Positions 832-36,940 of a stretch of DNA of 64,000 bases are shown in pieces. The notes under the pieces were generated by a model. That model worked only from the letters and a program-made list of their open reading frames with translations. It did no database searches and was not told the origin of the DNA. The position numbers and the translations under genes are program-made. Source of the DNA: Simmondsia chinensis (lineage: Eukaryota > Streptophyta > Magnoliopsida > Caryophyllales > Simmondsiaceae); assembly GCA_018398585.1 (NCBI GenBank), contig JAGTTD010000020.1, forward strand, positions 21,486,350 to 21,550,349, read 5' to 3'. Within the stretch, counting starts at the first letter, position 1; each line of letters opens with the position of its first letter.

Positions 832-1086
832 AGGTTCATTTATCAGGCACTAATGCACCGGATCCCATTAGAACTTCGAAGTTAAGCGTGCCGGGGGGAG
901 AGTAGTACCGGGATGGGTGACCTCTTGGGAAGTCCTCGTGTTTCCAACCCTATAAGATTGGAGGTCCTCAGAAACAGCCTCTCGGCAGGGTTATACCCTG
1001 AAGGGGTAAGGTTGCGTACATCCATCCCCCTAGACCCTGCTTAGGCGGGAGCCCTGAAGGCACTAGGTCTGTTGTTGTTTGTTGTA
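832..1086 (+). mobile_element. 5S rRNA-headed SINE, copy 1 (subtype A)
   Basis: Positions 832-950 align along almost the whole length of plant 5S rRNA: GCACTAATGCACCGGATCCC, then AGTTAAGCGTGC, GAGAGTAGTACC and GATGGGTGACC, then GGGAAGTCCTCGTG. The head passes directly into the angiosperm SINE tail at 951-1086 (GAAACAGCCTCTCGGCAGGG, TTGCGTACATCC, GCGGGAGCCC, CACTAGGTCTGTTGTTGTTTG). This is the best preserved 5S head in the window. Flanks TTTTGTAAAA and TTTTGGTAAAA suggest a degraded TSD. It is not a 5S gene: there is no terminator T-run after the 5S part and no tandem array. Confidence 0.85.
880..929 (+). promoter_or_regulatory. 5S-type internal pol III promoter in SINE copy 1
   Basis: The A-box region (AGTTAAGCGTGC), intermediate element (GAGTAG) and C-box (GATGGGTGACC) of plant 5S genes are all present in order and with normal spacing. 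The C-box is intact. By analogy with 5S genes this would recruit TFIIIA, TFIIIC and pol III, so the element could be transcribed; that is inference. Confidence 0.65.
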
Positions 1087-1427
1087 TTTTGGTAAAAAAG
1101 TATTGTTGCAAAAAAGTAGATTGTTTTATGGCAGAAGTAGCGATAACGTGTTTATAATATTAGTGTGAGTGTTTGATTAACATTTAAAAAAAGTGTTCTC
1201 CAAAGGGACATTGATGAAAGTGCTTTTGTAATTGATATTATCTGGATACATAATTGATTTTAAAAAGTTTCTTTTATAATATGTGGGCCATTTTATGTTT
1301 TCAAATATCGGGAATAATTTTAAATTATAGAGTAAAATAAAAACAGCATTATAAGTTATTAAGAAAAAATTCTAGACCTTCAGCCTTGGAGGAAATAAGT
1401 AAAAAATAATGAGACGATAGGTACATG

Positions 1428-1635
1428 GCTGGTTCTGACATTTTCAAGACCTCAAGCGGACATTTCAAATAGGGGCTCTTTATATATAATAAAATTCTAA
1501 AAATTATAATATTAAAACTTATTACTATTAACAACTTGACTTTAAAAATATAATCCTCTAAAATTTGGGGGCCTTGAATTTCGGGGGCCCCAAGCTGATG
1601 CTTGGGTTGCTTGAGGTTATGTCCAACCCTGCATA
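1428..1635. repeat. Possible MITE remnant
   Basis: The right part (TTTCGGGGGCC ... TGCTTGGGTTGCTTG ... CCAACCCTGC) resembles the right end of the well-bounded MITE at 57278-57559 (ATTCGGGGGCC ... TTGCTTGGGTTGCTTG ... CCAGCCCT). The left end is not clear and no TSD is visible. Confidence 0.35.
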
Positions 1636-2118
1636 GGTAAATGATAAACATAAAGTTTATGGAATACCTTAATTGCGGAATGGGATTGGGACTTGTCCTA
1701 CCGCCTTGGTAAATAACCATTAGAACTGTCGTATTAACTAAGAAGGCTACAAGAATCCTCTAGTTTTCCACATCATCAGAGCCAAGAGTCGAAGATGATA
1801 ACTCTAGAAAAAGATTTGAGCATTAGGAGAGAAAGTGATTTTTTAATCAATTGAATGAATATTTACTTAATTGAGAGAAGGACTTTATTTATACGCATAA
1901 TACTCGATGCTCGTCTAGCCATTACTCCCTATGAAAAGGGTAGAAAATTCTCCCACTACATTAGTGGGATGCTCTCTACTATTCTCGACTTATGAGAAGT
2001 TATAAAATAGTGGTTGACTAAGTCAGCATCCATATATAAATAACCTAATAATTTTTTTATAAGTCGATAAGATTTCACCAAACTTTTCATATATGGGGTC
2101 GAATAATACATAAATTAA

Positions 2119-2448
2119 GGCCTCATTTAATATGCAGGAAATAGAGGCAAAAAGTAAATGGAAAATACGGATTTAAGCTCTTGTTTGATTTGCATGGAAT
2201 AGACAGAATACATAAAGTAAAAATTGCTAAATAATTTTTTATTCCTCTAAAACAAAGGAAATAACTTACCTATTCCCTCCTAGATAAGTTCTAATTTATT
2301 TGTTTTTAACTAATGCCCTAAAGGAAGTTTAATCTCTCATTCTGGCAACCAAACATGTTTGATCTATTTTCCAAGAAATTGACGTAGGAATTAAATTATC
2401 GAAAAATATAACTTTCCTTAAAAATCCAATTCACGTGTCAACCAAGCC
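2119..2448. mobile_element. PIF/Harbinger-like MITE
   Basis: Termini GGCCTCATTTAATATGC and CGTGTCAACCAAGCC are imperfect inverted repeats, flanked by TAA on both sides (2116-2118 and 2449-2451). A 3 bp TAA target duplication is typical of Tourist/Harbinger MITEs. Related elements with GGCCT...TTGGTT ends occur at 34981-35251 and 56629-56962. No coding capacity. Confidence 0.55.
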
Positions 2449-2461
2449 TAAAAAATAACAT

Positions 2462-2647
2462 CTTCAGTGTCCCAAGGGCTTCCGTCTAAGCACGGTTTAG
2501 GGGTGGACTTACGTAGTTTTTTCCGTTCAGGGTGCTATACAAGGACTTCCAAAAAGGTCACCTATCTTAATATTGCTCTTATATAAGTACGTTGAACTTT
2601 AAAATTCTAATATAATTCGGTATTTGCGTGTTGATAACCTTTTAGGT
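2462..2647 (-). mobile_element. 5S rRNA-headed SINE, copy 2 (degenerate, subtype B)
   Basis: Minus-strand order is 5S head (TTAGAATTTTAAAGTTCAACG, AAGATAGGTGACC, GGAAGTCCTTGT), then a shortened middle, then tail (ACTACGTAAG, CCCTTGGGACACTGAAG). The region between the 5S end and the tail (the GGAAACAGCC segment) is missing, so the copy carries an internal deletion. It is more diverged than the other copies and its TSD is lost. Confidence 0.65.
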
Positions 2648-3289
2648 GTGTCAGCAAATATCATTAATTGTCGTGCCCATCACGTGTTAAATAAAGCGTT
2701 TGTATTGCAACGTGACACTTTGACAAAAAGGCTCAGGTTTGTTAGCGCTGCCAAGTGGCTGCGTTTCTACGCTACTTTTATTGAGAAATTATCATGTGGC
2801 TTCGACGCGCCATAATGACGTGGTGATCCCTCATTACTTTTTATCTTTTATTTATTTTACACAATTTTTTATTTTTAATAAAAATTAAGTTATTTTTAAC
2901 TTTTTAAAAACTTTAAGTAGAAATATGTGAAATTAATTTTTTTGTCTTTTTAATCTGACATTATTTCCTAATAATTATATTTATAAAATTTTAATATTTT
3001 GTTTAAGGTTTAATTTGGATATTTTTTTAAATTTTAATATTTTGCTTATAGTTTAAGTCTTTAAAATTATGAAAAGTAGCATCTCTCTCTTCTTATTTCT
3101 AGATAGCTTTCTGATTGTGATTTAGATACACTGAAAAGAAATTTAAAAGTTATGTGGATACTATAATTTTAGCCTTCGTGATTAGTCCTGCAAAAGTTCA
3201 ATTGAATTAATTTCGAGTGAGGTAATATTTTTTTTTTTTTGAAGAACAAAGTCTTTTTATATGGTTTCATCTTCTTTAAACTTAAGTGT

Positions 3290-3965
3290 GGTGGGGTGCC
3301 TTCGGTATCTAACCATGACTCAACTTGTTATGCTGTTAACAATGTTTTCCAATTTATATATGCTCTCGGGTCCTCTCATTGACCAATGGTAAAGTAGATA
3401 TTGCGGCACCTAAAGCTCACGCCTAGCCATGGTCTCACAGGCCAACCCAGTTCTTGTACCACTATTACAACATTTGCTGATGTCAATTGAGGTGGCCATC
3501 CAGATACTCGACGTTCCACCACTAGAAATGATCTTTTCCTAGGCCCTAACCTGATCTCATGGCGAGCCAAGAAACAACTTACTATTGCCGAATTCACGAC
3601 TAAGTTTGAATATCGAGTTGTTGCTGAATGTCACTGAATCTGATATCGTATGCCGGACCTTGACTTGTGTCACACAAGTCCCTATGTTCTTTACTGTGAT
3701 ATGCTTCTGCTACTTATCTTGCAACTAACCCAATCTCCAACGACAGAAGCAAACATGATTATGTGTATTTTCACTATGTTCTAGAGAAGGTGCTAATGGA
3801 TAATCTTCAGATTCGATATAATCTTAAACCAAACAGGTGATTGATATTTTAACCAAAGGTCTTCCCACTGTTCATTTCTGCACAAATAAAGCCAATCTGC
3901 ATGTTAGTCGCCTTATCTCGGTTGAAGGGATTATATAGATCCGACTCAATCATGATTAAGTTAGC
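3290..3965 (+). pseudogene. Ty1/copia RNase H/pol 3' end remnant
   Basis: Frameshifted plus-strand translation gives copia RNase H motifs: an STTG-like stretch, FLGPNLISWRAKKQ, IA.FTTKFEYRVVAE and, near the end, the integrase/RT C-terminal phrase DILTKGLPT. Many stops and frameshifts. No LTR is recognisable on either side. The frame and divergence differ from the copia element at 4517-6860, so it is a separate, older insertion. Confidence 0.6.
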
Positions 3966-4516
3966 TTTATCTTATCATGTACTCTTTATTTTTATATATA
4001 TAATAACTAGCATCCCTGATTTGGTATGCCACAATATTTCTTAAATATTCACAGGAGGGAAAGCAATGACAGATTTAAAATTTTAGTTTCGGAGCTTGAT
4101 AAAAATTTGTGTTTGTATTTTTCTTCTGTAGTTTTTGTATCTTCAATTTTTAAATTAGTTTATTAATACTTTATTCGATATCACCGTTTTATTTCAATAC
4201 TCTTTTTAATGTATAAATCGTGAAAAGCAGTTCAATTCGAGAATACAAGTTATTAGAATTTGAACAAAGTTTGTCGGATTAACCTACAAGGTTGTTATAT
4301 CGAAAACTATGTTTATATCATACCTTCAGTATTCAATATAACGTCTATGTATGCTAGAGGATGACACATTAACATAGCAAGAACAATAATTACCTCACTG
4401 ACTTAACCAAAAAAAATGAAAAATTAACAATAATTATCTTACATTATATTTTCCGTGAAAAATAATATATTTTCTAATATATAATAGAGTAATATATTTA
4501 TCAAGATTATGTTTTT
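3966..4516. other. AT-rich spacer
   Basis: No open frame of note, no terminal repeats and no RNA gene were recognised here. Confidence 0.5.
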
Positions 4517-4856
4517 TGATGTAGCACAGATAAGAACAAATTGACACTGAAGGTTCGACAGCCTTTATTTAAACTCTTATTGCTAAAATAATTAAGAAGC
4601 AAAGGGAAAATAAAAGTTTAGGATTAGACACATCAAATGAGGTGGCCCCCTCTTGTATTTATAATGAACTCATAATTACAATATATGAAAACATATACAT
4701 ATTAATCCTACACAATATATTCTAGCCATAATATAATATATTCTAACATAATCCTATACAATATATTCTAACCATATATTCAACACAATATATTCTAACA
4801 TAATCCTATACAATATATTCTAACTATATATTCAACTGTTACCATATATTCTAACA
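4517..4856 (-). repeat. 3' LTR of the copia element
   Basis: On the minus strand it begins TGTTAGAATATATGG directly after the polypurine tract GAGGGGGGA and ends GTGCTACATCA, i.e. TG...CA, 340 bp. The 5' half is built of tandem variants of TTAGAATATATTGTATAGGA. A promoter-like TATAAATACAAG precedes the transcribed part. The matching 5' LTR is absent from the window, so no LTR age comparison is possible. Confidence 0.75.
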
Positions 4857-5083
4857 TCCCCCCTCAATCGAGGCAAGAGGTGACCAAATGCAAAGATTGT
4901 GTTTGAAAAATAAAAATAACTATCGAGGAAGGTTCTTAGTAAAAATATCAGCAAGCTGTTGTGAAGAGGGCACATGAAGGATACGAACAAGACCCATGTG
5001 AACTCTTTCATGCACAAAATGAATGTCGATCTCGATGTGTTTAGTACGAATATCCTGAATGGGATTAGTGGAGAGATAGGTTG

Positions 5084-6860
5084 CTAAAACATTGTCACAG
5101 TAGACCAGGGTTGCTTTAGAAATAGTGATGCCAAGATCACTAAGGAGAGAGCGCAGCCAACAACACTCCGAAACTGCATTGGCAACGGCGCTATATTCTG
5201 CTTCAGCATTGGAGCAAGAGACGGTGGCTGTCGTTTGGAGGACCAGGAAATAAGGTTACCACCAAAAAACATACAAAAGCCAGAGGTGGAATGACGAGTG
5301 TCAGAACAACCAGCCCAATCAACATCAAAATAGACCACAAGCTGATCAAGGGCACCGGGAGAGATAGTAAGGCCATGATTCATAGTACCTCGAACATAAC
5401 GAAGAATACGTTTGACAGCAACCCAATGAGGAAGACGAGGAGCATGCATAAACAGATACACCTGTTGCACTGCATAAGAGATATCAGGATGAGTAAAGGT
5501 TAGATACTGTAATGCCTCGACAACCAACCGATACAAGGTGACATCGGTCAGAAGCTCCCCATCAGAAGTAGAGAGTTTGGATTTGGAATTTGTGGGAGTA
5601 GCTACGGGTTTGTAGGCTAACATGTCAGTCTTCTCGAGCAAATCATGAACATTCTTGAACTAAGATAAGAATAAATCATCAGGAAGGCGAGAAATAGAGA
5701 TTCCAAGAAAGTAGTTGAGACATCTCAAATCTATCATATCAAATTCATACTGAAGATAGTGTAGTAAAGTTTGAAGGAAGGCAGTAGAGGAAGCAGTAAG
5801 AACAATATCATCCACATAAAGCAACAAAATAGCCATATCAGTCCCACATCGTAGAGTGAACATGGAAGAATCAGACTTGCAACTGTGAAAACCGATGCGA
5901 TGAAGAAAGGACGCAAAATAATTATGCCATGCACGGGGTGCTTGCTTCAGTCCGTACAATAATTTATTATGCTTGCAAACGTAATTTGGAAAATCAGAAT
6001 TCACAAAACCCGGTGACTGCTTCTTATACACTTCTTCATTCAATGTGCCATTTAAAAAGGCATTTTTAATATCAAGCTGATGAATGGACCATTTTCTTGA
6101 TGTGGCGATGGTTAAGGTAGTAAGAACAATGGCCGGTTTGACAACAGGACTAAAAGTCTTATCATAATCAATACCGTACCGTTGCGTATAACCCTGAGCA
6201 ACTAAGCGCGCCTTATAGCGCTCAATTTGACCAGTAGAAGTCTGTTTGACACGAAAAATCCATTTAGAGCCAACAACATTAGCAATACATGGTTTTGGAA
6301 CAAGTGTCCAAGTGTGGTTACGATGAAGTGTATTATATTCATCAAGCATTGCATTTTTTCAATTACCATCATTAAGTGCTTGCTTGTAGGAATAAAGAAT
6401 ATCAGTTATAGCAGAAAGAGCAACCATTGAGGGTTTGAGAAGAGGCTTAGTAATACCAGCCTTAGACCGAGTAACCATTGGATGAACTGACCGAGAAGAG
6501 GCAGGTGGCTCGGGCGGTGATGATAATGGCAGCGGCAGCGGTTGCAGTGGGGGCGTGGGCCACGTTAAGCGAGTATCAAAGGAAGGCAATGGAGGACGCG
6601 AGGGAGTCGCAGGAGTGGAGGGTGCGGGAGGTGACGCATCAAGTGGTGGTTTGAACACCTGCTGAAGGTGATGCATAGTATGCTGCGAAGTGGCCCCCAA
6701 TCGGGCTAGAGGAAAATCTGTTTCATCAAAAACAACATGTCTCGAGATAACAATTTTGTTAGTCGTGAGATTTAAGCACTTGTAGCCCTTATGGTTCGGT
6801 TGGTACCCCAAAAAGATACATAATGAGGATCGGGGTGCTAGTTTATGCAGCACAATAGCA
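5084..6860 (-). pseudogene. Ty1/copia pol (integrase end, reverse transcriptase, RNase H)
   Basis: One minus-strand frame carries the integrase C-terminus (6853-6359: IFLGYQPNHKGYKC), the reverse transcriptase (6349-5660: GSKWIFRVK, ARLVAQGYTQ, YGLKQAPRAW, LLYVDDIVLT) and RNase H (5641-5084: VYFDVDWAGC, STSGFCMFFG). The pieces are separated by two single in-frame stops: a TGA where a Trp codon is expected (..DGN-stop-KNAMLDEY) and a TAG where Gln is expected (..LFLS-stop-FKNVHDL). Both look like C-to-T decay. A frameshift near 5235 breaks RNase H. Gag, protease and the 5' LTR are missing, so it is 5'-truncated. Confidence 0.85.
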
Positions 6861-7129
6861 CTTAAGTTGGGATAACAATTTTAATAGTTAATCCTAATTC
6901 TTACAACCGAAAATTAGGAGAAAACTAATAAGCACATAAAATTCTAAAGAAACTTGAATAATTGAATGTATCAAAACCCTAGGTTTCCACTTTCTTAAAT
7001 AGAGGAGCTAATTGACCTAGAATAAAACAATAAAAATTAAAGAGCTAATTACAAAGATAAATAACAAAATCTACTAATCTAAACTAAGTTTCCTAAATGA
7101 AGTTAAATGCCACTTGGATCAAACCTCTT
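6861..7129. other. Spacer upstream of the truncated copia element
   Basis: AT-rich, with no recognised coding signal. Confidence 0.4.
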
Positions 7130-8330
7130 CTTGTCCATCTCCCATCCCGCCAAGTTCCAACTAGCCAATACCGACCCCGCAAGATCCATCCACCTCGTAA
7201 CCCGCAAAAGCTAAGGCGCAACTGCATCTCCCTGGGTTGGAGAATTCGCCCTCAGATTCTCCAACGGATCATCTAGATTATTTTCACCTAGCCATGTCCC
7301 AGGACGCTCGTCATCCATCTCACCAAGCTTGCCCAGACATGGACTGTTGACCCGACTCGCCGAAACGCAGGTTGTATCCCATCTTGCCAAGACGTGGACT
7401 GCATCATCCTCCCTGACTTGGAAAGAATTCGCCCTCAAATTTAACAATGATTCATCTAGATCATTCGTGCCAAGTCACCGGTTGGAAGTCTCAATTAGTC
7501 AACAACTTCCACAATGGCTTCCAAGACCAGTGCACAAAGCGTACAACCCTATCCATCACAATGTTGGCCAGTACGCTATGCTTGCATGTACCCCTCATAT
7601 AAACTTCCCGGGTTTCAAATTCAGTCTTCCACTCACCTTTTCGCAAAATGCAACTTTGATGGTATCCATTCTTCATACCCAACTTATTAGACACCATCAA
7701 ATTCTACAATTAGCATAGAAAGTCATCCAATCTCGGAATGGGTAATCAATATCATACCGTGATCTTACTGAGGGTCCTATTGTCAAGGCATACCCGCCAA
7801 GTCCCATCCTTTGTTGGCATCAAGATAACTAATTCGCTCTTCAATCTCTCTAATGCAACCTCTGTCGAATAGCTTCCAAACTTGGCACCTAAGATCCTCA
7901 CGCTTCGAAATGCTCATTTAGTATGGCACCTAAGATCCTGGCACCCGATTAACCAGTGTTGAATGCCTCTTGATGGCGACAAAGAACTCGGCAACCTTTC
8001 TAGGTAGACTTCCTTCGACAAATTTTCCACCTCTCTTTGTACTTCACCCTATTCCTCCTGGCACTCCTTGTCCATCAAGTTCTCACCAACTTCCTTGACG
8101 AGCATGACTCTAGTTTGGGGATTCGAGTTTTCGGCTATCACCAAACATCGTGTTCCGTCTTTTTTAGGCAACAAGACAATCTTTGTACCCTCAAACATAA
8201 AGTTGTAGGTATTTCGCCTCCATCATGGGTAGCCCCTCTGTCAAATTGCCATAGTCGTCCAAGCAACAAATGGAACGCATCCATCGTAACCACATTACAC
8301 CAAAAGTTAAGGCACCGTTGCATCATTTTT
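7130..8330 (-). pseudogene. Degenerate Ty3/gypsy pol
   Basis: On the minus strand, about 8300-8020 resembles the gag-RT linker, and 7830-7690 gives gypsy RT: KVILMPTKDGTWRVCLDNRT, then SKITVRYDIDYPF. Only about 250 bp later comes a run like the end of a gypsy polyprotein (LRANSFQVREDDAV at 7447-7400, repeated as ENLRANS). RNase H and integrase are therefore deleted. Full of stops; not functional. Confidence 0.6.
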
Positions 8331-8414
8331 ATTAGTAAAAATGTTCTTCTATTTGAATAGTTTATGTACCTAAATGAAGTATTTATTAGTAAAAATAATA
8401 GTAAAAGAAAAACA

Positions 8415-8431: not shown

Positions 8432-8677
8432 TAAAAGCAATTCTCAGTGCCCCAATGGCTCCCACCCAAGCAGGATTTGAAGGGGTGGATGTACGCAGCC
8501 TTCCCCCTTTAAGGTGCTACTATGAAGAAAAGCAGTTTCCAAGAATCCCCAACCTGATAGGTGCAACACGAGGACTTCCCAGAACGTCACCCATCTTGGT
8601 ACTACTCTCGCTCAAGCACGCTTAACTTCAAAGTTCTAATAGAATCCGGTACTTGCATATTAGTACCCTCTTAGGTT
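8432..8677 (-). mobile_element. 5S rRNA-headed SINE, copy 3 (subtype B, perfect TSD)
   Basis: A 246 bp element on the minus strand. It starts AACCTAAGAGGGTAC, then the 5S body (TATTAGAACTTTGAAGTTAAG, GCGAGAGTAGTACC, AAGATGGGTGACG, GGGAAGTCCTCGTGTTGCACC), then the SINE tail (GGCTGCGTACATCCACCCC, GGGTGGGAGCC, GGGGCACTGAGAATTGC). The perfect 17 bp TSD at 8415-8431 / 8678-8694 fixes both ends and shows it moved as one unit by target-primed reverse transcription. It therefore defines the family: about 120 bp of 5S and about 120 bp of tail. Confidence 0.92.
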
Positions 8678-12819: not shown

Positions 12820-13073
12820 AAGGATTCATTTACCAGGCACTAAAGTACCAGATCCTATTAGAACTCAGAAGTTAACCATGCTTGGACGATAGTAGTACTA
12901 GGATGGGTGACCCCCTAAGAAGTCCTCATATTGCCAACCCTATAAGGTTGAGGATCTTCGAAAACAACCTCTCGGCAGGGTTACACCTTGAAGGGTAAGG
13001 CTACGTACATCCACCTCTCCCAGACCCCGCTTATGCGGGAGCCTTTGAAACACTGGGTCTGTTGTTATTGTTG
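12820..13073 (+). mobile_element. 5S rRNA-headed SINE, copy 4 (subtype A)
   Basis: Same 5' end as copy 1 (AAGGATTCATTTACCAGGCACTAA against AAGGTTCATTTATCAGGCACTAA). The 5S body is complete (TATTAGAACTCAGAAGTTAA, AGTAGTACTAGGATGGGTGACC, AGAAGTCCTCAT), then the tail (AACAACCTCTCGGCAGGGTT, GGCTACGTACATCCACC, TGCGGGAGCC, ACACTGGGTCTGTTGTTATTG). The C-box is intact; the A-box has AACCATGC for AAGCGTGC. Flanks TTGATATAA / TTGATAGAG are a weak TSD. Confidence 0.82.
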
Positions 13074-15599: not shown

Positions 15600-16486
15600 T
15601 AATTTTCTAAAATTGTACATCTTGATATTTTTATTTCCAAAATATCACACAAAAATTTAAAAATATCAAAATAGCATGCCAAAATTTAAAATTATCAAAA
15701 CAATATACACAGTCAACATGTCATTGCCACCTAAGTAAGAGCATTTTGATCATTTTTCCTTTTTTGAATTAAAAAAAAAGAAACTCTTTTTTTTTTAACG
15801 GCTAAAGCAACTTTTCACCAAAATTAAAAAAAAAAAAATTTAAATGTTGCCTAAATATTTTGTATAACATATCAACTTAGATAATAACAACAATAGTAAT
15901 AGTAAATATATTTTTTTTACATTAAATTTTAAAAATTGTGATAAATTTTGACATATAGACTGATAGTATCTATATAATACAAGCAACATTCCCAGTGCCC
16001 CAAGGGCTCTTGCCTAAGTAGGATATGGGAGGGATAGATGTACGCAGTCTTTCCCCTTCAGGGTGCTACCTTGAAAAGAGGCTGTTTCCTAAAACCCCCA
16101 ACCTGAGGGGTGCAACCCGAGGACTTCCCAAGAGGTCACCCATCTTGGTACTACTCTCCCCCAAACACACTTAATTTCGAAGTTCTAATGAGATCCCGTG
16201 TTTGCGTATTGATACCCTCTAAGGTAGTATCTATACAATAAAATACTAAAAATTTAGTCAATATTTACTTTTTTTTATATTTTGATGAAAAGTTGTTGCA
16301 GCCGTTTTTTTTAAATTTTGAAAAAAGTGAAATGACCAAAACGCCCTTACTTAAGTGGCAATGACATGCTAACTAGGCGAGCTATTTTGATAATTTTTAA
16401 TTTCCGCGTACTATTTTATTGATCTCAAATTTTTGCATGCTATTTTTAAAATAAAAATATTAAAATGTATTATTTTAGAAAATTAC
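15600..16486. mobile_element. Long foldback element, copy 2, carrying a SINE
   Basis: Ends GTAATTTTCTAAAAT and ATTTTAGAAAATTAC are inverted. The inner block AACATGTCATTGCCACCTAAG...GCATTTTGATCATTT is mirrored by AAACGCCCTTACTTAAGTGGC...ATGACATG. Removing the SINE and one TSD copy leaves about 625 bp, close to copy 1 (632 bp). The SINE inserted after the foldback did. Confidence 0.65.
15980..16224 (-). mobile_element. 5S rRNA-headed SINE, copy 5 (subtype B)
   Basis: 245 bp. Minus strand starts ACCTTAGAGGGTATCAATACG, then 5S body (TCATTAGAACTTCGAAATTAAG, GAGAGTAGTACCAAGATGG, GTGACCTCTTGGGAAGTCCTC), middle GGAAACAGCCTCTTTTCAAGG, tail GACTGCGTACATC ... AAGAGCCCTTGGGGCACTGGGAATGTTGCTTG. The flanks TAGTATCTATATAATA (15964-15979) and TAGTATCTATACAATA (16225-16240) are a 16 bp TSD with one mismatch. 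C-box intact. Confidence 0.9.
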
Positions 16487-19294: not shown

Positions 19295-19475
19295 CTTATT
19301 ATAAATTTATTTGTTTACTCAATTTAGACTAATTTTTGATCAAACCATTAAAAACTTAACATTAATTTTTCTCTAAGAACCAAATTGACACATTTTGAAT
19401 TGTGCAGGGACTAAATTGACACAATTAAAAGTACAAGATCTAAATTGACATAGTAGACAAAGTACAGGGACCTTT

Positions 19476-19782
19476 TACCTTCTACCTTTAGCTCTGGCTG
19501 ATATGATTCCATGCGTACATGCTTACTTGTGTACTTATTTATTTGTCTACTTACTTACATGCTTGTATGCATACTTACTTAGCAGAATCTCTATACTATA
19601 TTTTATATGCTCTTCATACAGGCTATTCATAACTATCGATATCAAATATCAGGTTGGAGATCCTCAGAAACAGTCTCTCGTTAGGGTCTCACCCTGATGG
19701 GGTAAGGCTGCGTACATCCTACCCCCCGACCCTGCGTAAGCGAAAACCCTTGAGGCACTGGGATTGTTGTGCTGTTGTTGTA
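19476..19782 (+). mobile_element. Angio-tail repeat with non-5S head, copy 1
   Basis: 307 bp with an 18 bp TSD, two mismatches (CAAAGTACAGGGACCTTT 19458-19475; CAAAATACAAGGACCTTT 19783-19800). The tail from 19650 (GGTTGGAGATCCTCAGAAAC ... GGCTGCGTACATCC ... CACTGGGATTGTTGTG) is that of the 5S-SINEs, but the first ~170 bp (ATGCTTACTTGTGTACTTAT, GCAGAATCTCTATACTATA) are unrelated to 5S and show no clear tRNA boxes. It is either a SINE with an unclassified head or the 3' end of an RTE variant. It lies about 170 bp upstream of the decarboxylase TATA box. Confidence 0.75.
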
Positions 19783-19962: not shown

Positions 19963-20179
19963 CTCCCTTCACAATTCCATTACATCTCACACAATTCTTC
20001 AAACACTTCTCTCTCTCTCTCTCTTGCTTGTCTATTTCCTTCATTTTTTTTTTGTACATTCACATCACACTACTCCAAACCCTAATCCCGAAAATTCTTT
20101 GATACACTCGATCTGTTATTTTTTCCCCTTATCTGATATCTATAGATACTTTAACCAATACCCAGTATTGTATTTCAAA

Positions 20180-21742
20180 ATGGGTTCCTTGGATTACAAG
20201 CAAGAGGGCTCAAAGGGGTTCCCTAAGATCACTAACCCATTAGACCCAGAAGAGTTTCGCCGTCAAGGCTATATGGTCATTGACTTTCTGACTGATTACT
20301 TTAAGAACATTGAGAAACACCCGGTTCGAAGCCAAGTCGAACCAGGTTACCTTCGTCAACGGTTGCCAGAATCTGCCCCAGATGAGCCTGAACCTATCGA
20401 GACGATCTTGAAAGATATTCAAAATGATATTGTTCCTGGACTGACACACTGGCAGAGCCCTAATTATTTCGCCTATTTTCCCAGCAGTGGTAGTATTGCT
20501 GGGTTGCTGGGTGAAACCCTAGCTGCTGGGTTCAATGTGGTCGGGTTTAATTGGATTTCCTCGCCCGCAGCCACGGAACTCGAGAGTCTCGTCATGGATT
20601 GGCTTGCTAATATCATCCAACTCCCAAAGTCATTTACTTTTTCGGGGGATGGGGGTGGGGTCCTGATGGGGACCACATGTGAGGCTATTTTAACTACTAT
20701 AACCGCCGCTAGGGACCGTGTTTTGGATCAGATCGGTCGAGAAAATATTAACAAGTTAGTCATTTATGGTTCAGACCAAACCCATTGCTCCTTTTACAAA
20801 TCCGCCAAAATAGCGGGGATTTCACCGAAAAATTTTAGAAAAATCAAAACCACACGAAACGCTGCGTTTTCAATGCGACCGGACTCTTTACGCGCCACGA
20901 TAGAAGCTGACGTGGAAGCAGGGCTAATCCCATTCTTCCTTTGTGCAACAGTGGGGACCACCTCCACTGCTGCCGTGGATCCAGTGGGCCCCCTATGTGA
21001 CGTGGCAAAAGACTACGACATGTGGGTCCACGTGGATGCTGCCTACGGTGGTAACGCATGTATCTGCCCCGAGTTCCGCCACTTAATCAACGGCGTAGAA
21101 AATGCCACATCATTCAGTTTCAACGCTCATAAATGGTTCTTGACCACTCTAGATTGTTGTTGCCTCTGGGTCAAACACCCGAACCTATTAGTCAACGCTC
21201 TTTCCACCAATCCAGAGTACCTAAAAAACAAAGCCACGGACGCGAACAAAGTGGTAGACTACAAAGATTGGCAAATCCAGCTGAGCCGTAGGTTCCGAGC
21301 CTTGAAGCTCTGGCTCGTACTCCGAGCCCACGGCGTAACCTACCTACGTGACTTCTTAAGAAGCCACGTGGACATGGCTATTTACTTCGAGAACCTCGTG
21401 ACCATGGACGAGAGGTTTGAGGTGGTTGTCCCTAGGAGCTTCGCTTTGGTTTGTTTCCGAGTCAAACCGGTGGCTGTTATTGACGCGCTTCATAAGAGTT
21501 GTGCAAGGCATGCGCAAAAGTTTCTAGAAGAAGAGACGGTCAATGAGATTAATGCAGAGATACTTGAGTCCATTAATTTGTCGGGTCGGGTTTATATGAC
21601 CCATTCGGTGGTGGACCAGGTTTATATGATCCGGTTTGCGGTGGGGGCCACTTTGACTGAGGTGAAGCACGTGACTTACGCGTGGAAGTTGATCCAGGAG
21701 CATGCAAGTGTTGTGCTGGGTCGCAGGGTTTGCAATTGTTAA
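20180..21742 (+). CDS. TYDC: Tyrosine/DOPA decarboxylase (PLP-dependent group II decarboxylase)
   Basis: Intact single exon of 520 codons, the usual length and intronless form of plant aromatic amino acid decarboxylases. I chose the ATG at 20180 (MGSLDYKQ...) over the upstream in-frame ATG at 20024 because plant homologues begin MGSL and the upstream part is a CT-rich leader. Seen: N-terminal [10 protein letters not shown], the PLP-domain [21 protein letters not shown] (Asp286), and the Schiff-base lysine in SFNAHKW (Lys318). In the mobile loop the residue in NPEYLKN is Tyr347; family knowledge says Tyr there gives decarboxylation whereas Phe gives aldehyde synthase. Ser369 (QIQLSRRF) sits where tyrosine/DOPA enzymes have Ser and tryptophan decarboxylases Gly. 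So I infer production of tyramine or dopamine in the cytosol, feeding alkaloid or hydroxycinnamoyl amide pathways. A SINE-like insertion lies in the promoter and a MITE 27 bp after the stop. Confidence 0.95.
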
Positions 21743-27610: not shown

Positions 27611-27642
<32 letters not shown>

Positions 27643-28989: not shown

Positions 28990-29929
28990 TAATTTAGATA
29001 AGTATTATGTCATCTTCATGCCAATAATGCCTTTGTCTAGCGACACAAAAAACGTTGCTAAAATCTGTATGTCACCTCGACTGCGATATGCTGCAAGGAG
29101 ACACCTAATATGTCCGAGTCTTCATATTTCTTGACGAAAGAACAAGAGTTGGTAGTTCTTGAAGTTCACCAAGTTGAATTGATTGCTAGAGACGACATCA
29201 AGAAACATAACTGAAGAAAATGAAGATCCTAGGTCAATCTTCTTCTGTTCTGCACATTAAGGATAAAAATTGATTATAGCTAGAAAACAAGTTAGTTATT
29301 TATGCAGCCTCTCGTGTTTGTAAACGTGTTCAATGTAATCCCTCATGTTTTATTTTATTCAAAATGGTCCCTCGTATTTTATTTCATGACAAAGTTCCTA
29401 AACAAGTTACTTAACCCTACCTGCTTGGAGACTAATTTTCCACAGGAATAAAGCAGGACAGAACATTTCAAACAAAATAACTTGTTTGAGGACTAATGGT
29501 GTCATAAAATAAAACATGAAGGGCATTTTTGACAAAAATAAATTATGAGACACTAATTTGAATAAACTTCCAAATACGAGGGACCATGTAAGTAACTCCT
29601 AGAAAATATTAGTTCGAATCGTATTCATAGATAGCAAGAACCATAGAACGCTATGTCAGCTCAAACCTTGTCATTTGACGTCAAAATACACGTCTCGAAC
29701 ACTAAGACACTTGGATATGATGTGACACTTTCGACACTCCGAGTTAGCTCAAAACATAATAATTTCCGAAAATAGATGGACCCAAACCACAGTCTATTAC
29801 CCTATTCCGAGTAAAATACGGGGCCATAGCATTATTGATAAACTGGATACTACAACTCAACCCCATACGTCCAATTTTACCAACTCTCAGGTAGATGACA
29901 GCCAGACATGGAAGTAAATGAAAAAAGGC
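28990..29929. other. Spacer
   Basis: A diverged inverted pair (29300-29420 GTGTTCAATG...CCCTCATGTTTTATTTT; 29500-29590 AAAATAAAACATGAAGGG) suggests a foldback element around 29310-29600. No gene recognised. Confidence 0.35.
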
Positions 29930-30310
29930 CAGCTCGTCATAAAGCTCAAAATGGCTGAACTCGTTCAGCTTACCAGCCAGATCCGACCTTGGTGAAGCTC
30001 ATGTTTGTAGGCCGATAGGCTCACTAGCCTAAACAAGTCTAAGTAAAACTATCTTAATACAATTTATAAGCTTAAGTGTGCCCAATCGAGCCACCCTTGA
30101 TCCTAAATAAGGGGAGCTCGAGCCTAAACGAGCCTAAATCAAGCTTAAATGAGCCTCAGTAAGGGAAGCTCAATTCAGAGCTCACTGCATTAGATTCAAG
30201 CTCAACCAAACCAAGCCAAGCTTGAGTCTATCATAAGCCAAGCTCGAACTTGAAGTTCTTCAGCTCGACGTGCTATGAAACAAGCCCAAGATGAGATAAG
30301 CCTCAAGCCC
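29930..30310. repeat. GAGCCTAAACGAGCC-rich repeat
   Basis: Many copies of AGCTCGA, GAGCCTAAA and AAGCTCA in both orientations, the same composition as the bounded MITE at 37978-38563 (GGCTCG/CGAGCC). Probably a decayed member of that class; ends not located. Confidence 0.4.
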
Positions 30311-30539
30311 CACAAGCATAGGGTTGGCACAGCTCACATATACCCTAGTCTATCCACGCCGGCAAATCATCGCTCTATCGCTCACTGTTTTATCTTCAAC
30401 CAGTTCAGAACAGTTAGGAATCGCATTTCTGGCCACATACCTGAATGATAAATGGATAGCAAGAAAGATGTAGAGGTCACAAATGGAACATGGACATGAA
30501 TGTACAGATGATAACAAAACCTACACTTACAACACTACG

Positions 30540-30712
30540 TATTTATATTTATAAGTGTTATTTACACCAAAGGATATTCCCCCTACTTGTATTTATGTCA
30601 ATTTAATTCATTTACAATTTACATTGCCGCAATTTAGTCCTCTGATGAAATTGAAGATAATGACATGATGTTGACAGCCAGATCATGTCAAATACAAGTG
30701 ACTTAATACAAG

Positions 30713-30746
<34 letters not shown>

Positions 30747-30755
30747 AAAAAACCC
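30540..30755. repeat. Foldback MITE family C left half, then homopolymer runs
   Basis: GTGTTATTTACACCAAAGGATAT and the following TGTCAATTTAAT ... CATGTCAAATACAAGTGACTTA match the left and central part of family C. The copy then stops at 23 C (30714-30736), one G and 15 A (30738-30752). The abrupt C-run/A-run junction could be real or a sequencing/assembly effect. Confidence 0.5.
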
Positions 30756-31049
30756 CGACCCCCCGGGGTAAGGTTTTTTCCAAGTTTAAGTGAAAACCGA
30801 AAATAAAAAAGCCAAAAACAAAAAAGTCATTTTCAAAACTATAATGCAAACGCAAAATCATATTTAGAGATTCTCTATCTCACCCTCACGCGATATAATC
30901 TTCACCCAGCTCAACTGCAAGTCGCCGAAAGTCGCACTACCAATGTTGGTAGTGATGGAAACACAGGTGATGGGTGGGCAGAGCAGATGCAAGGACAGTA
31001 ACACAGAGAAACAGATAAATCAAATTTCTGAAGTTTAAAGTTACTAGAG

Positions 31050-31150
31050 TATCCCTTCTAAAACAACATCTCATTAAGGTAGCATCTTGTAAGGGTAAGG
31101 TTGTATATATCTTAACAAGGTTAGAGACCCCACTAAGCGGAAGGCAATTT
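31050..31150 (+). repeat. Degenerate Angio-type SINE tail
   Basis: AACAACATCTCATTAAGGTAGC, TGTAAGGGTAAGGTTGTATATATC and GAGACCCCACTAAGCGGAAGG follow the order of the SINE/RTE tail, with many substitutions. Confidence 0.4.
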
Positions 31151-32412
31151 CACCACCTTAGTAAGCTAGGCAAAGAATAAAGAAGTATTCTCAAACCTCA
31201 CATACAGAAATAAAGAAGAACGCTCATTTTTTTTTGACAACTTTAAAACTGAATGATGAATTGAATTAAATGGCTCACCCCAAGGGGTATCTATAGTTAA
31301 AGATTCAATCCTAAATTTTTAAAAAAAAATTGACAAACAAAACCCTTACTGACAAATATAAAGATCTATCCTTAGGATAATCCTAACAGTGATAGGACTC
31401 TAAAATAAACTTTAAACTACTTGTAGATATTGGGCCGCTAAAACTAGGCTAATTAAACCGAGCTCAATTAAACTAATTAAATTGGGCTAAGCTTCACGGA
31501 CACCCCGTGTCATGCCCCATCCCACGCTGTAATCCTTACCAATCTAAAAACACGAGAACTAAAACAAAACTGCCCAACTAAAGAATCGCCTTGTCTCCAA
31601 CTAAAATGTAACAAAGAATTAAATATTTAGAGAAGCCACAAATATGCATAATTCAAGTAAATAATTACCTTGAAGATGGACACAGCAGAAGTTTCATCAA
31701 GTCACCGCACATAGTTGATACCCTCAATCCTCCACGGCAATTAGAAGTATCTGATTTCTGGCAATTCACTAAGCTATACATTCATAGAGATTAATTCGTC
31801 CTCCCCACATTGCCTGATTTCAATTACCATTGATTTGCTAGAGGGGTGTGATATGTCGCAGCATTGTCGGCGAGGAGCCTATACCGGGAACAAAGAGATG
31901 ATTATGTTAGTGATAACCTCTGTTAGTGAAAAAAGCATACAGTACACATTTTGGACACGTATTAGTACTTTCTCGTTTAAAAAGGGTGGTTACATATCAC
32001 TGTCAATAATACAGAAAATATGCATTTTCGTTATGTTATTTGCATAATACATGTATTATAGCACGTATCTATTTTCCCATTTAAACATAAATAATAACTA
32101 AAAATAATCAATATATACACCTTGTTAAATATTCATATTTTATATTTTGCTAATTGGTCACTTAACTCTCAAATTATTGATTGTATAGCATCATTTACCA
32201 CGTCTTATGCTTCTCATAGTACTATTCTAACTGGCATTATCCTTCACTTTTATAGGTCAACGAACTTGTGACCAAAATTTTCATTTATAAAACCGAAGAA
32301 TACACATATGTATTAGATCCCATTTGCATACCATATTTCACTAACAGGATAGTAACTACACAAAAGAATGCGTAACATAAGAAAAATCTTAAATCAAAAG
32401 TTCAAGCATATG
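31151..32412. other. Spacer downstream of the DUF604 gene
   Basis: No gene recognised; the open frame 31835-32047 (70 codons) has no recognisable features. The 3' UTR of the minus-strand gene should lie just below 32413. Confidence 0.35.
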
Positions 32413-33169
32413 CTAGAAGAAGAATACCACCTTCCAATCATGCTCCAGCTTTTTAGTGAACACTCTTATGCGTTCCATATCCTCAATGACATCCGCTCGA
32501 GAGCAATGACCAGTAATGTTCTTCCTATAGTCACTCCAAATCCGTCCTGTCCGAGAAACAACGCTATCCAGGAAGAAAACTGCAGGTCTTTTACAGAGAT
32601 TTTTCGGATAATCCCGCGTATTAAAGACGTATTGATACATGTTATTACTCCCACGCCTTCTCCATGGTGTAAATGTCCTAAGCGGTGAAAGCAAATCCAG
32701 GAGAAGTTGATTGCCCTCGTACACTTGAATCGCATAGCCCCATGCAACTGAAACAGTTAAATTATTTGCACGGTCGTAGCAAACACTTTGCTGCAAGATT
32801 CTGGGGGGGTCAACATTTGCAGCTTTAAAAAGATGTTGCAATGCTTGTATGTGATCCATGTTTGGAAAAATGGGTTTTACGGCATCAAAATGGTGAAGAG
32901 ATAACAGAGGTGACAATGGAGAAGCAGTGAGAAGTCCAAACAAATCTCCTCTGACATCAACCTGTCAGAATAATTACTCAACATTAAAAATTTTCTGAAT
33001 TACAACAGTAAGATTATAGCTGTCGTATGCATGTTGATATTGCATGAAATGTTAAACTCGGTCATGAATCAGGCAGGTACCATTATGATGAGATAAGTTG
33101 TCCATTTTCAAACAAAACTGAAGTAGTGGGCACGTTTTCGATATTGCATTAGGATAAAACTGTAAGGTG

Positions 33170-33205
<36 letters not shown>

Positions 33206-36025
33206 TAGAGGTTAGGGAGAACTAGGTGGATTATCGATAGACAGTCTGCCATAGTGCATAGCGCTAGAAATCACTGGGTAAACTACTGATAGACGGCCCT
33301 CCTCATACATCAGCACCAACGATCGTTGGCAGGTTGGGAGCTACTACTATAGTAATCAGTGATTCAGTATTTACAAATATCATTTCAGCAATTGCGATAA
33401 TAAATCCAAAAGGCCTTAGACCAAGCTAAATAATAGACACATCTACACCCGAAAAATGGAAATAACTCTGCTTATCAGATAAAAATGGCTATTGAAACAT
33501 TCACAATTTGATTATCAATGATCAATCAGCTTCATACAATTATTTCACCAACTTTTCCCTCCATTCTGAATCCCTTTACCTGGGATCAACCAAATGATGA
33601 TCGCGTCATTATGTCAAATAATCTTGAGTTGTACTTTCATATACAGCAACAACAACAACCCCAATGCCACAAGGGCTCCTGCCGAAGTAGGGTCGCGCCC
33701 GCGGGAGGATGTACACAACCTTACCCCTTCGTTGTACTTTCATATAACGGTCACCTAAATGGCTACAGCAACAAAATCTCAACATGATCTTTTACTTGAA
33801 TTGTTAAAAATGCTCTTTACATTCCCAGTCCTAAAGCACTCATACTTCAATCATCTTTCTTCCATATAAAAATTCTTTATGCACAAAAGCAAGCACAATA
33901 TTCATTGGGAAGGACCATCAAGGCAAACAAATATTCAATCACAAAGTCAATTAATAAAGGACAAAACAAATTTACGAAAATTTGCGGCTATTATTCACTA
34001 CAGAGTCACATTATTAACCTGCCAATAACATTTCTAGCATATCAATAACACAATGATAAATTACTCAATACCCATCAGAAGGAAAATAAATTTATCAACT
34101 AATAAACTACTCAAGTACACATCAGAAGGAGAACACTACCAAAAATAGAATAAAATACCCAATAACGTAAAGAACCACCAAGGTACTAAACAAATATTCA
34201 ATCAGAAATCAACCACAGAAAACAAACTAATCAACTAATAAATCCCTCAGTATCCATCAGAACAAAATACCAAAAAAAAAGCCATTTGCCACATAATTCA
34301 CCTGATGGAACCCGAAAGAAGTTCTACTCCCCAACCTAGCAACTAGACATGTTTTATATACAGGAATTGAATTTTCGAAAAGTACAACTTTCCGCAGGAA
34401 TTCAATTCATCTATCAACCTAACGGGGCGTAAAAAAGATAGAGATTAGCCACAGAAGTTCGAGTCAAGTCAACCCAGGTTCTCGAGTCAAGTCAACCCAA
34501 CCCCCCAAGGTCAGCCACACAAGCAAAAACGCTAGCATCACTCCGATGCAAAGGGTTTTCAAGTGTAAAATTAACTGTGCTTAGACAAGTCCCAACAACA
34601 GAATTTTAAATTCTGCTCCAGTATATTAACTGTGCTTAGACAAGTCCCAACAACAGAATTTTAAATTCTGCTCCAGTATTCTTCCGTAATCACAAATCAT
34701 GAATAGAAAATAAATTATGAGTACTATTACCGCCGGGAATAAATTATTATTGTCCAAGCAAGATCGTAGTTTTAAGATAATTTTATAGTTTTTAATGTTT
34801 GTAAGTCACATTATTACTATAGTAATAGCAATTTTTGCCTCAGCATTAATAACTCCCTGAATTAATCTATTATTAAGTTAGTCAATACCCATCAAAATTC
34901 ATCAATTATTAAATTACTCAGTCCCCATCAGAAGGAAGTTTCTTTTTAATGGTAAGAAGAACACTATCGAAAGAAAACTAGGCCTCCTTTGGTATGCACT
35001 AGAAATTCATGAGAAGTACGGATTTTGGCCCTTGTTTGGTTTGCAGGAATTAGGCGGAATGTGGGAAGCAATTTCCATTTCCTTCAAAATGCTGGAGATA
35101 ACTTACCTAGGCATCGAAAGAAGTTCTTTTTCCCCTCCTAGAAACCGAACATATTTGGCCTACTTCCTGGGAAGTTGACACGGGAATTGAATTCCCGAAA
35201 ATTACAAACTTCCCGCAAGAATTCAAATTCATGTGGCAACCAAACGAGACCTATAAAAGAGAGATTAGCCAATAAATTCACCTGATGAAAGCCGGGTTCT
35301 CGAGTCAACCCAACTCCAAGCTCAGCAACACAAGCTGAAACCCTAGCATCACTTCCATACAAATGTGGGTACCTCATCAAACACGAATCAAAAACTCTAC
35401 CCAAAACCCTAGCCAACCCACTACTTATCGCAAACCCTCCACCGCCATACGCCATCTCAAACCCCATCTTCTGATTCTGCTCTACACTCTCCGAAACACT
35501 CCCAATGTAATACAACTTCTCATGATCATACTTCCCCAACACCCCCACCAAATTCTCCGGGAAAAAGACCGTGTCATCGTCTCCGAATACAAACCACCGC
35601 ACACCCACTTCGTTCCGATCCACCGCCTCCTTGACCACCCTTGCCCCGCGCACCGCCGTGCGTCGCCCACCCGGGAACGAGTACGGAAAGCGCGAGGTGG
35701 GTTCGGACACGACGAGCGAGGGGAGCCCGGCGGTGAGGTTATCAGGTAGCGAATCAACGAAGACGACAGCGCGGATGGAGGGGCAGAGCCAGAGAGAGAG
35801 AAGGGGGTGGCGGCGGGGGAGAGAAGAAGAAGAGGAGGAGATGGAGAAGAGGAGGTGAGAGAGAGAGGTGGGTGTGGTGGAGGAGAGAGAAAGGGGAGGT
35901 GAAGAAGAGCGGCGTAGGAGGAGGAAGCAGAAAATAGAGAGAGAGAAGAGGACTAAGAAGAGGGTTTTCAGGCGGGCAGAAGGGAGTTTCGCAGTGTGAA
36001 TTCTATGGCGATGATGGAGGTCCAT
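32413..36025 (-). CDS. DUF604 / fringe-like glycosyltransferase, two exons
   Basis: Exon 1 is 36025-35282 (248 codons) and exon 2 is 32961-32413 (182 codons plus stop); the GT donor after CATCAG and the AG acceptor before GTTGATG join in phase 0, giving EPGFHQ|VDVRGD and a 430 aa protein. I chose MDLHHRHRIH at 36025 because a basic N-terminus and one hydrophobic anchor (LFLVLFSLSIFCFLLL) follow at once, typical of a type II Golgi protein; an in-frame ATG 9 codons upstream is possible. Seen: RWFVFGDDDTVFF with the DDD metal-binding motif, YGGGGFAIS, LYGSDARV, VGLTREPGFHQ and, in exon 2, CYDR..NLTVSVAWGYAI. These are the hallmarks of plant DUF604 proteins related to the fringe/GT31 fold. Acceptor substrate unknown. 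The 2.3 kb intron holds a SINE tail, MITEs and a duplicated piece of exon 1. Confidence 0.88.
33644..33730 (-). mobile_element. Tail-only Angio-type insertion with perfect TSD
   Basis: 87 bp on the minus strand (starts GAAGGGGTAAGGTTGTGTAC, ends in CATTGGGGTTGTTGTTGTTG) lying between exact 16 bp copies of GTTGTACTTTCATATA (33628-33643 and 33731-33746). No 5S or other head was copied: a strongly 5'-truncated SINE or RTE insertion inside the DUF604 intron. Confidence 0.88.
34050..34980. repeat. Tandemly duplicated intron segments, including a copy of the exon 1 end
   Basis: Segments like CTAATAAACTACTCAAGTAC...ATCAGAAGGAGAACACTA recur near 34090, 34235 and 34890. At 34430-34550 AGATTAGCCA...GTTCTCGAGTCAA...GCTAGCATCACTCCGATGC repeats exon 1 and its border (35261-35355: GAGATTAGCC...GTTCTCGAGTCAACCC...CTAGCATCACTTCCATAC). 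ATTCACCTGATGG at 34297 repeats the donor site. At 34570-34680 a 55 bp unit (TTAACTGTGCTTAGACAAGT...) is present twice almost exactly. Confidence 0.6.
34981..35251. mobile_element. Harbinger-like MITE next to the exon 1 donor
   Basis: GGCCTCCTTTGGTATGC and GTGGCAACCAAACGAGACC are inverted ends; flanks are TA on both sides. Same family as 2119-2448 and 56629-56962; a truncated copy is at about 34318-34440. It ends 30 bp from the splice donor. Confidence 0.55.
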
Positions 36026-36030
36026 CAATG

Positions 36031-36080
36031 GCGGAAACACACACACACACACACAGAGAGAGAGAGGGAGAGAGAGAGAG
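36031..36080. repeat. (CA)n(GA)n microsatellite in the DUF604 5' leader
   Basis: ACACACACACACACAC followed by GAGAGAGAGAGGGAGAGAG. On the coding strand this is a CT/GT-rich leader directly upstream of the start codon. Confidence 0.75.
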
Positions 36081-36181
36081 TCAGAAATGATGGGGACAAA
36101 GGATTGTGGGGAGATTGGAGATGATGATGATGATGTTTAGAACCGACATTTAAACCTAATACACACTTGTTTTATGTCATA

Positions 36182-36194
36182 CATTTATAATTTT
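36182..36194 (-). promoter_or_regulatory. Candidate TATA box of the DUF604 gene
   Basis: Minus strand reads AATTATAAATGT about 160 bp before the start codon. It is the only TATA-like motif between the gene and the RTE remnant that begins near 36236. Tentative. Confidence 0.35.
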
Positions 36195-36235
36195 TTAAGA
36201 CCGAAAGTCCTAAAGATTGGGTAAGAATGGATATC

Positions 36236-36940
36236 GAGAAAATAATGTAATATATAATTGGGTCCTATAGTGTAGCAAGAACCTAAGAAGGGACCAGCAT
36301 TAAAATACCAAATTTTATTAAAACTCTAAAATTAAGCGTGTTTGGACAAGAATAGTACTAAGATGGATGACCTTTTAGGAAGTCTTCGTGTTGTAAGCCT
36401 CAAGTTGGTGGTACTCGAAAACAACCTACCCTGAAGGGGAGAATGCTGCGTTTATCCATCCCTCAAACTCTGTTTAGGCGTGAACCTTTACGACACTGGG
36501 AATGTTGCTCTTTTAGTATAACAAGATGGTGGAACCAACGAGGATGTTAATAATCGGATTAAAGTAGGATGGCATAAGTGGAAGACGGCTTAGGTGATAT
36601 TATGCGATAAACAGTTTTCCTTAAAGATGAAGGGGGAATGCGATAAGACAGTTGTGGGACTGGCTATATCGTACGGTGTTGAATGTTGGTTAGTTAAATG
36701 GCACCACATGCGGAAATTAAAGATGGCGGAGATGAGGATGTTACAACAAATGTATGGACACACAAGAAATAGCGAGATCATAAATGACGTTATAAGAAGC
36801 AAATTAGGCGTGACTCTTACTGAGGACAAGTTGAGGGAGCAACATCTGCAATGGTTTGGATATGTTAGGAGGAGAGCGACTACCGCCCTTGCTAGGAAAT
36901 ATGAACAACTTCATATTATGCATTGAAAGAGACCCTATCT
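36236..36940 (+). pseudogene. RTE-type LINE reverse transcriptase C-terminal remnant, interrupted by a SINE
   Basis: With the SINE and one TSD copy removed, the frame reads YLGPIV-stop-QDGGTNEDVNNRIK, then GWHKWKTA, LCDKQFSLKMKG, YGVECWLVK, EMRMLQQMYGHTR and LREQHLQWFGYVRRR, matching the C-terminal part of plant RTE reverse transcriptases and overlapping GWHKWRMAHAVLCDRKFPLK of the LINE at 38879-42535. It supplies the region that is deleted in that LINE. Several stops. It sits about 210 bp upstream of the DUF604 start, in the opposite orientation. Confidence 0.75.
36281..36513 (+). mobile_element. 5S rRNA-headed SINE, copy 6, inside an RTE remnant
   Basis: 5S body TTATTAAAACTCTAAAATTAAG, AGAATAGTACTAAGATGGATGACC, AGGAAGTCTTCGTGTTG, then tail (GAATGCTGCGTTTATCC, GGCGTGAACC, CGACACTGGGAATGTTGC). 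The TSD is TAGTGTAGCAAGA (36268-36280) and TAGTATAACAAGA (36514-36526), 13 bp with two mismatches. Removing the insert restores the RTE reading frame across the site. The C-box carries one change (GATGGATGACC). Confidence 0.87.

Follow-up and report, generated by a model that had tools for sequence, protein, structure and literature searches.

A 5S rRNA-headed SINE with RTE-type tails, in two subfamilies, in the genome of Simmondsia chinensis

Six 5S-headed copies in a 64-kb window

We analysed a 64-kb stretch of the nuclear genome of Simmondsia chinensis (the window; contig JAGTTD010000020.1, positions 21486350-21550349), which lies inside an 831-Mb assembly of 35 contigs. Six copies of one unit were identified in it, each consisting of a head derived from 5S rRNA and a tail resembling the 3′ end of an RTE-type long interspersed nuclear element (LINE). 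We read the unit as a 5S rRNA-headed short interspersed nuclear element (SINE), that is, a non-autonomous retroposon of about 250 bp without long terminal repeats (LTRs), which occurs in two subfamilies and thousands of dispersed copies in a flowering plant. In this reading, the unit would have been born when a LINE switched template onto 5S rRNA, RNA polymerase III (Pol III) would transcribe it, and RTE enzymes would mobilise it. The probability that we give to this reading as a whole is about 0.92; that the plant carries a real, abundant SINE with a 5S head and RTE-type tails, in two subfamilies, is confirmed by the results below.

An earlier note on the window had reported six such copies, and all six are real. 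The Rfam model RF00001 (5S_rRNA) matched five of them at 830-944, 8568-8665, 12827-12934, 16107-16219 and 36281-36399, with scores of 45.1-65.5 bits against a gathering score of 38, while the sixth was recovered with a model of the family itself. Four copies, those starting at 2462, 8432, 15980 and 36281, belong to subfamily A, and the two starting at 832 and 12820 belong to subfamily B. Searches of the whole window with the family models revealed no seventh copy with both head and tail.

The first copy, on the forward strand, has its head at 832-950 (65.5 bits), the subfamily B junction at 938-964 and, by sequence comparison, its tail at 951-1086, with a TTG-rich end. The second, on the reverse strand, is degenerate: its head at 2535-2647 gave no Rfam match at E<=1, and the copy scored 134.7 bits against the hidden Markov model (HMM) of subfamily A over 2654-2441, with the junction bases missing; the family model placed its tail at 2462-2534. 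The third and the fifth copies are also on the reverse strand, with heads at 8560-8677 (47.0 bits) and 16107-16224 (56.9 bits), junctions at 8546-8569 and 16095-16118, and tails at 8432-8559 and 15980-16106, respectively; the head of the fifth reaches the last 5S bases (CACCCC). The fourth and the sixth are on the forward strand. The fourth has its head at 12820-12940 (45.9 bits) and a tail, found by family model search, at 12941-13073, and the sixth has its head at 36281-36399 (45.1 bits), with 78% identity to the consensus, and its tail at 36400-36513.

The 5S head and its junction with the tail

The heads were compared with the 5S rRNA of the host, taken from one array on contig C8, in which 20 of 20 fetched genes were identical. 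The consensus of subfamily A covers host positions 12-119, where 119 is the last base, and is identical at 101 of 108 positions with no gap. The consensus of subfamily B covers positions 12-118, with 103 of 110 columns identical, three gap columns included. The description of the heads as near full-length 5S rRNA therefore holds for both subfamilies. In the host gene the last 5S base is followed by TTTTTC, whereas in subfamily A it is followed by TCAGGTTGG, the start of the tail; thus, subfamily A switches sequence exactly at the 5S end, and its head is fused there to a tail of about 125 bp homologous to the 3′ end of an RTE-type LINE.

As in other SINEs, the source of the head is an RNA gene transcribed by Pol III. 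Judged by its sequence, the head contains the 5S internal promoter region and, as in SINE3 elements, spans the usual 5S positions of the A box, the intermediate element (IE) and the C box. No tRNA was found in the window by ARAGORN, a program that detects intact tRNAs.

Apart from the SINE heads, two 5S rDNA arrays were seen on opposite strands of the same contig, at C8:4685657-4702430 and C8:6396691-6414603, their best 5S scores being slightly different (112.8 and 111.1 bits); of 51,838 loose candidates, 47 had been scored.

A genome-wide family of two subfamilies

A search of the whole genome, which had been proposed in the earlier note, was carried out with the copies 8432-8677 and 832-1086. 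It gave 7,273 and 7,435 loose candidates, respectively, of which 40 each were scored; 41 and 40 matches were returned, all except one near full length. The alignment pools were made from 29 of the 41 listed matches plus four window copies for subfamily A (n=33), and from 29 of the 40 plus two window copies for subfamily B (n=31). Since the pools hold the best-scoring matches to each query, their divergence is biased low and was not used for dating.

The consensus sequences are 246-253 bp long and, as expected of a SINE, represent a short, dispersed and highly repeated unit. That of subfamily A starts with ACCTAAGAGGG and ends with GTTGCTTTT; that of subfamily B starts with AGGGTTCATTT and ends in (TTG)n. 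Between the two, 213 of 234 aligned bases of head plus tail are identical.

The 24-base junction of subfamily A had 4,584 matches and the 27-base junction of subfamily B had 6,475 matches across the 831 Mb at up to three mismatches, while the reversed patterns of both, used as controls, had none in the genome; these are far more than a few chance junctions. As the junction patterns detect just three of the six window copies, the true copy number may be around 20,000, a rough figure extrapolated from six copies.

A search with only the final 24 bases of the A-type head gave 6,170 matches in the genome (reversed control, 0), a number that can include 5S genes and well-preserved copies of subfamily B. 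We looked for the tail at every fifth of 100 listed head-end places (n=20, all exact matches, on contigs C1-C6) and found it in 18 of the 20 loci, 17 by the rule of the script and one, L095, that aligns 46 bases into the tail. Of the other two, one (L093) is a head with no tail, and in the other (L090) TTTTT follows a 5S gene or pseudogene. The flanks of the fetched loci, a non-random sample of 172 kb, contained nine further matches with head plus tail, two with the head only and 16 with the tail only. Two tailless A-type heads, at L093 (C4:32607671-32608094) and at L007:766-891, break off at the junction or close to it and are possibly interrupted or deleted copies.

The junction pattern had no match in viral and bacterial/archaeal collections. 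A tail pattern was likewise silent there, which suggests that these collections contain hardly any plant DNA, if any, and the negative is thus uninformative on other plants.

Target-site duplications and flanks

Target-site duplications (TSDs) were scored as their length minus 3 per mismatch, with a threshold of 9, and the pool test omitted loci L001 and L051, which are the window copies 8432-8677 and 832-1086. TSDs reached the threshold in 27/33 copies of subfamily A and 21/31 of subfamily B. When the 5′ flank of one copy was set against the 3′ flank of another, this happened in 0/320 and 1/303 pairs, respectively. The TSDs lie at the ends of the unit of about 250 bp and are variable in length, mostly 12-21 bp, as is typical of SINEs. 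Hence, the fused unit was dispersed with TSDs at its own ends, and the suggestion that the chimera moves as a unit is borne out.

In the window itself, three copies had been credited with good TSDs. Two of these stand, namely copy 8432-8677, with an exact TSD of 17 bp (AGTAATAAAAATCATTT on the element strand, score 17), and copy 15980-16224, with one of 19 bp and two mismatches (score 13). The third, at copy 36281-36513, is weak (13 bp with two mismatches); its score of 7 is below the threshold and inside the range of the mismatched-flank null, which goes up to 8. The copies starting at 832, 2462 and 12820 scored 4-5, and a wider margin at copy 832 gave 13 bp with one mismatch, eight bases away from the element.

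Flanks of 300 bp each, with the 3′ flanks beginning 30 bp past the element, were also compared with each other. Only 10 of the 128 flanks shared any homology at E<=1e-5, and there was no same-side pair at the element edge. With unrelated flanks and TSDs at the ends of the unit itself, the copies are not always inside a larger LTR element.

The shared tail and an RTE-type LINE

A candidate partner LINE lies on the reverse strand of the window at 38874-42535. It ends at 38874 in (TTG)n, with a TSD after that end and the other TSD copy at 42552-42536; this TSD, of 14-17 bp with one mismatch, sets the presumed 5′ limit of the element. Its coding region appears as two open pieces, 41631-40387 with an APE-type endonuclease (Pfam Exo_endo_phos) and 40182-39031 with a reverse transcriptase (RT; Pfam RVT_1, E 1.8e-35). 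Thus, the features looked for in a partner LINE, an APE endonuclease with RT, a 3′ simple repeat that is not poly(A) and a TSD, are all present. Of 287 relatives of the endonuclease, 120 were listed, and many of these are plant proteins that bear the name 'Craniofacial development protein 2', which we take to be the usual misannotation of the endonucleases of RTE elements and of BovB, itself a member of the RTE clade; some are moth or butterfly proteins. From these relatives and the (TTG)n end, the LINE is probably RTE-type.

The last ~130 bases of this LINE (38874-39008) are homologous to the SINE tails, with 103/116 bases identical to subfamily A (88.8%) and 112/132 to subfamily B (84.8%); in other words, the SINE shares its 3′ end with an RTE-type LINE of the same window. 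What the earlier note called the angiosperm SINE tail terminates not only the six copies but the window LINE as well.

Model searches found the tail with no 5S head at eight places of the window, at 19647-19782, 31058-31143 (weak), 33730-33648, 38874-39002 (the LINE), 47766-47891, 49729-49636, 61225-61147 and 62273-62380. Two of these, both on the reverse strand, are flanked by repeats read by eye, TAATAGGGAACCTC on both sides of 49636-49729 and ATATGAAAGTACAAC on both sides of 33648-33730, and are consistent with 5′-truncated copies.

A third type of element was seen on the forward strand at 19471-19782 and 47591-47891, in which a non-5S head of about 180 bp is followed by the same RTE-type tail. 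The heads of its two copies are 92% identical, and a comparison with 41600-43200, where the 5′ end of the window LINE lies, gave no match; the copy at 19647 has an apparent TSD, read by eye, around ACARGGACCTTT. Near the SINE copy 36281-36513, an open reading frame (ORF) at 36594-36926 on the forward strand looks by eye like the C-terminal part of an RTE reverse transcriptase, and a Pfam search with it was empty.

Alternative readings

It could be argued that the copies are fragments of Cassandra, a plant terminal-repeat retrotransposon in miniature (TRIM), or of another LTR element, as the LTRs of Cassandra are described as carrying a region similar to 5S rRNA in many plants (PMC10853983; PMC7215508). 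We consider this very improbable. The TSDs, mostly of 12-21 bp, stand at the ends of the 250-bp unit, no LTRs surround the 5S region, the flanks are unrelated (10/128), and the unit terminates in a LINE 3′ end which 18/20 head-end loci carry. On these grounds an LTR origin was rejected for the whole unit only; an origin of the head alone from Cassandra falls outside this rejection. Slightly less probable still is that we are dealing with ordinary 5S pseudogenes or chance junctions of 5S and LINE tail rather than with a mobile family. LINEs are generally known to make one-off chimeras and 5S retropseudogenes, but chance was rejected by the 4,584 and 6,475 junctions against reversed controls of 0, and the same head-tail structure is common to copies from many contigs, with TSDs in 48 of 64.

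A closer question is whether 5S rRNA was captured once, by an element that later diverged, or twice, by two RTE LINE lineages that gave rise to subfamilies A and B separately. The subfamilies differ in both their 5′ and 3′ ends, and the tail of A is slightly nearer to the window LINE than that of B, which speaks for two captures. Nevertheless, the two heads share bases that the host 5S does not have, e.g. ACC instead of ACT around position 78, together with the CTCC and CCTC changes, although the latter two may be just older 5S bases, and the subfamilies are close overall (213/234). We therefore regard two captures as unlikely, though clearly less so than the Cassandra and chance readings.

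Proposed origin and mechanism

For the SINE reading, we propose that a LINE enzyme would have copied about 125 nt of the LINE 3′ end and then switched template onto the 3′ end of 5S rRNA; this birth by template switch is favoured because the junction of subfamily A sits exactly at the 5S end. In the resulting element, the 5S internal control region of the head, with its A box, IE and C box, would direct transcription by Pol III, an RTE reverse transcriptase would recognise the shared 3′ end, and the SINE RNA would be inserted by target-primed reverse transcription.

The first ~11 bases of both subfamilies no longer match 5S rRNA and can pair with the bases at the junction of 5S and tail, which would rebuild helix I. 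Shuffled 5′ ends paired equally well in 62/5000 cases for A, 86/5000 for B and 7/5000 for true 5S, and the minimum-energy folds of the A and B heads alone contain the rebuilt helix. The reverse complement of the A junction, CCAACCTGAGGGG, is close to the A start, ACCTAAGAGGG. The evidence is modest, and it suggests either selection for a closed 5S-like fold or fold-back copying of the new 5′ end. A 3′-terminal stem-loop was also predicted across nine tails.

Several points weigh against the SINE reading, or against parts of it. Both Pol III transcription and RTE mobilisation are predictions from sequence, and the mismatch to host 5S is not clearly lower within the promoter boxes than outside them. 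Four of the six window copies fall under the TSD threshold. Subfamily A ends in GTTGCTTTT and not in (TTG)n, and the tail of the window LINE is just 89% (A) and 85% (B) identical; therefore, the true partners of A and B may be RTE subfamilies other than the window LINE. When the A and B consensus sequences are folded at full length, the structures of lowest energy lack the rebuilt helix I. Covariation support for the shared 3′ stem-loop was about nil in the nine tails, and the stem-loop is not used here as proof.

With these points considered, the interpretation given in the earlier note is supported, and to it are added the two subfamilies, a likely partner LINE and the exact junction of subfamily A.

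Comparison with known 5S-bearing elements and plant SINEs

SINEs with a 5S head (SINE3) are described from vertebrates and some insects (PMC7245038), and 5S-headed SINEs have been reported in Aspergillus (PMC5063351). The animal elements (zebrafish SINE3, AmnSINE1, HaSE3, PxSE4/PxSE5 and Ped-1) resemble ours in having a 5S head with an internal promoter and a LINE-derived 3′ part. They differ in that the present host is a flowering plant and that a near full-length 5S is joined at its 3′ end directly to the LINE tail. Vertebrate SINE3 is said to be transposed by CR1, while HaSE3 of Lepidoptera seems to be mobilised by RTE (PMC7245038), and the springhare Ped-1 is partnered with the BovB LINE (PMC3747384). 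The tail found here is not a CR1-type 3′ end but belongs to an APE/RT LINE that terminates in (TTG)n and has RTE-like relatives; the likening to the SINE3 type is right for the head, whereas the tail differs from that of vertebrate SINE3. An origin independent of the animal SINE3 is most likely, and the combination of 5S head and RTE tail probably arose more than once, because HaSE3 also seems to use an RTE LINE.

Among plant SINEs, the TS SINE, a member of the Angio-domain superfamily, has a tRNA-derived head, in contrast to the 5S head of the present element. Both have an RTE-type 3′ end: according to PMC3747384, tobacco TS has this end in common with an RTE LINE, and the same review lists seven RTE families of flowering plants, which end in (TTG)n or (TTGATG)n. 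In our element subfamily B ends in (TTG)n, and subfamily A has the tail with its own end, GTTGCTTTT. The Angio-domain is a published 37-bp domain of plant SINEs (PMC9033089).

The Cassandra TRIM is likewise a plant retroelement with a 5S-derived Pol III promoter, but it is an LTR element, whereas the present unit has no LTRs, has a LINE 3′ end and is bounded by long TSDs of variable length at its 250-bp ends; the distinction drawn earlier between the two structures is correct. Ajax, a TRIM of nemerteans, also carries a 5S promoter, but is an LTR element with 5-bp TSDs (PMC10886601). The insertion of a SINE3 into an LTR has been put forward, as a speculation, for the origin of Cassandra (PMC10886601). 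Where a 2024 paper on Cassandra discusses acquired genic promoters, it names animal SINEs (PMC10853983), and it cites Seibt 2020 on how promoter regions have been reshuffled in SINEs.

PMC9033089 describes plant SINEs as derived from tRNA, and no SINE derived from 5S rRNA was found when the maize genome was searched for such elements in 2009 (PMC2774510). No description of a plant 5S-headed SINE was found in the open-licence papers searched, and an earlier one in the main plant SINE papers is possible. It is a tentative proposal, to which we give somewhat less than even odds, that this is the first plant SINE with a 5S head and that its origin, by a template switch of an RTE enzyme to the 3′ end of 5S rRNA, was separate from that of animal SINE3. 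In this proposal, the 5S 5′ end was replaced in the source genes of the element and helix I was nevertheless formed anew, so that the RNA retains a closed 5S-like fold, possibly for binding 5S partners such as TFIIIA or ribosomal proteins, and such elements are the postulated donors of Cassandra-like 5S LTR elements.

A high-copy family in a plant means that the capture of 5S by LINEs extends beyond animals and fungi, and the likely donors of the chimera, the host 5S genes and an RTE-type LINE, are both within the same genome. It also provides a concrete SINE3-like element of plants for testing the speculation that Cassandra goes back to a SINE3, and would be a plant example of the donor postulated there. 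In practice, thousands of 5S-like copies could turn up as contaminants in 5S gene counts and in analyses of 5S small RNAs of this plant.

Other features of the window

An ORF on the forward strand at 20024-21742 encodes a single-ORF tyrosine/aromatic amino acid decarboxylase, with 79% identity over 91% to the tyrosine decarboxylase of Lophophora (peyote cactus). Among the 120 relatives listed for it (of 4,741) are also proteins of Spinacia (76%) and Amaranthus (75%), all three genera being Caryophyllales. Pieces of a Copia-type polyprotein lie on the reverse strand at 5084-6853, with RVT_2 in 5660-6349 and the other pieces recognised by eye, and a fragment of a hAT transposase is present at 50305-51360, also on the reverse strand.

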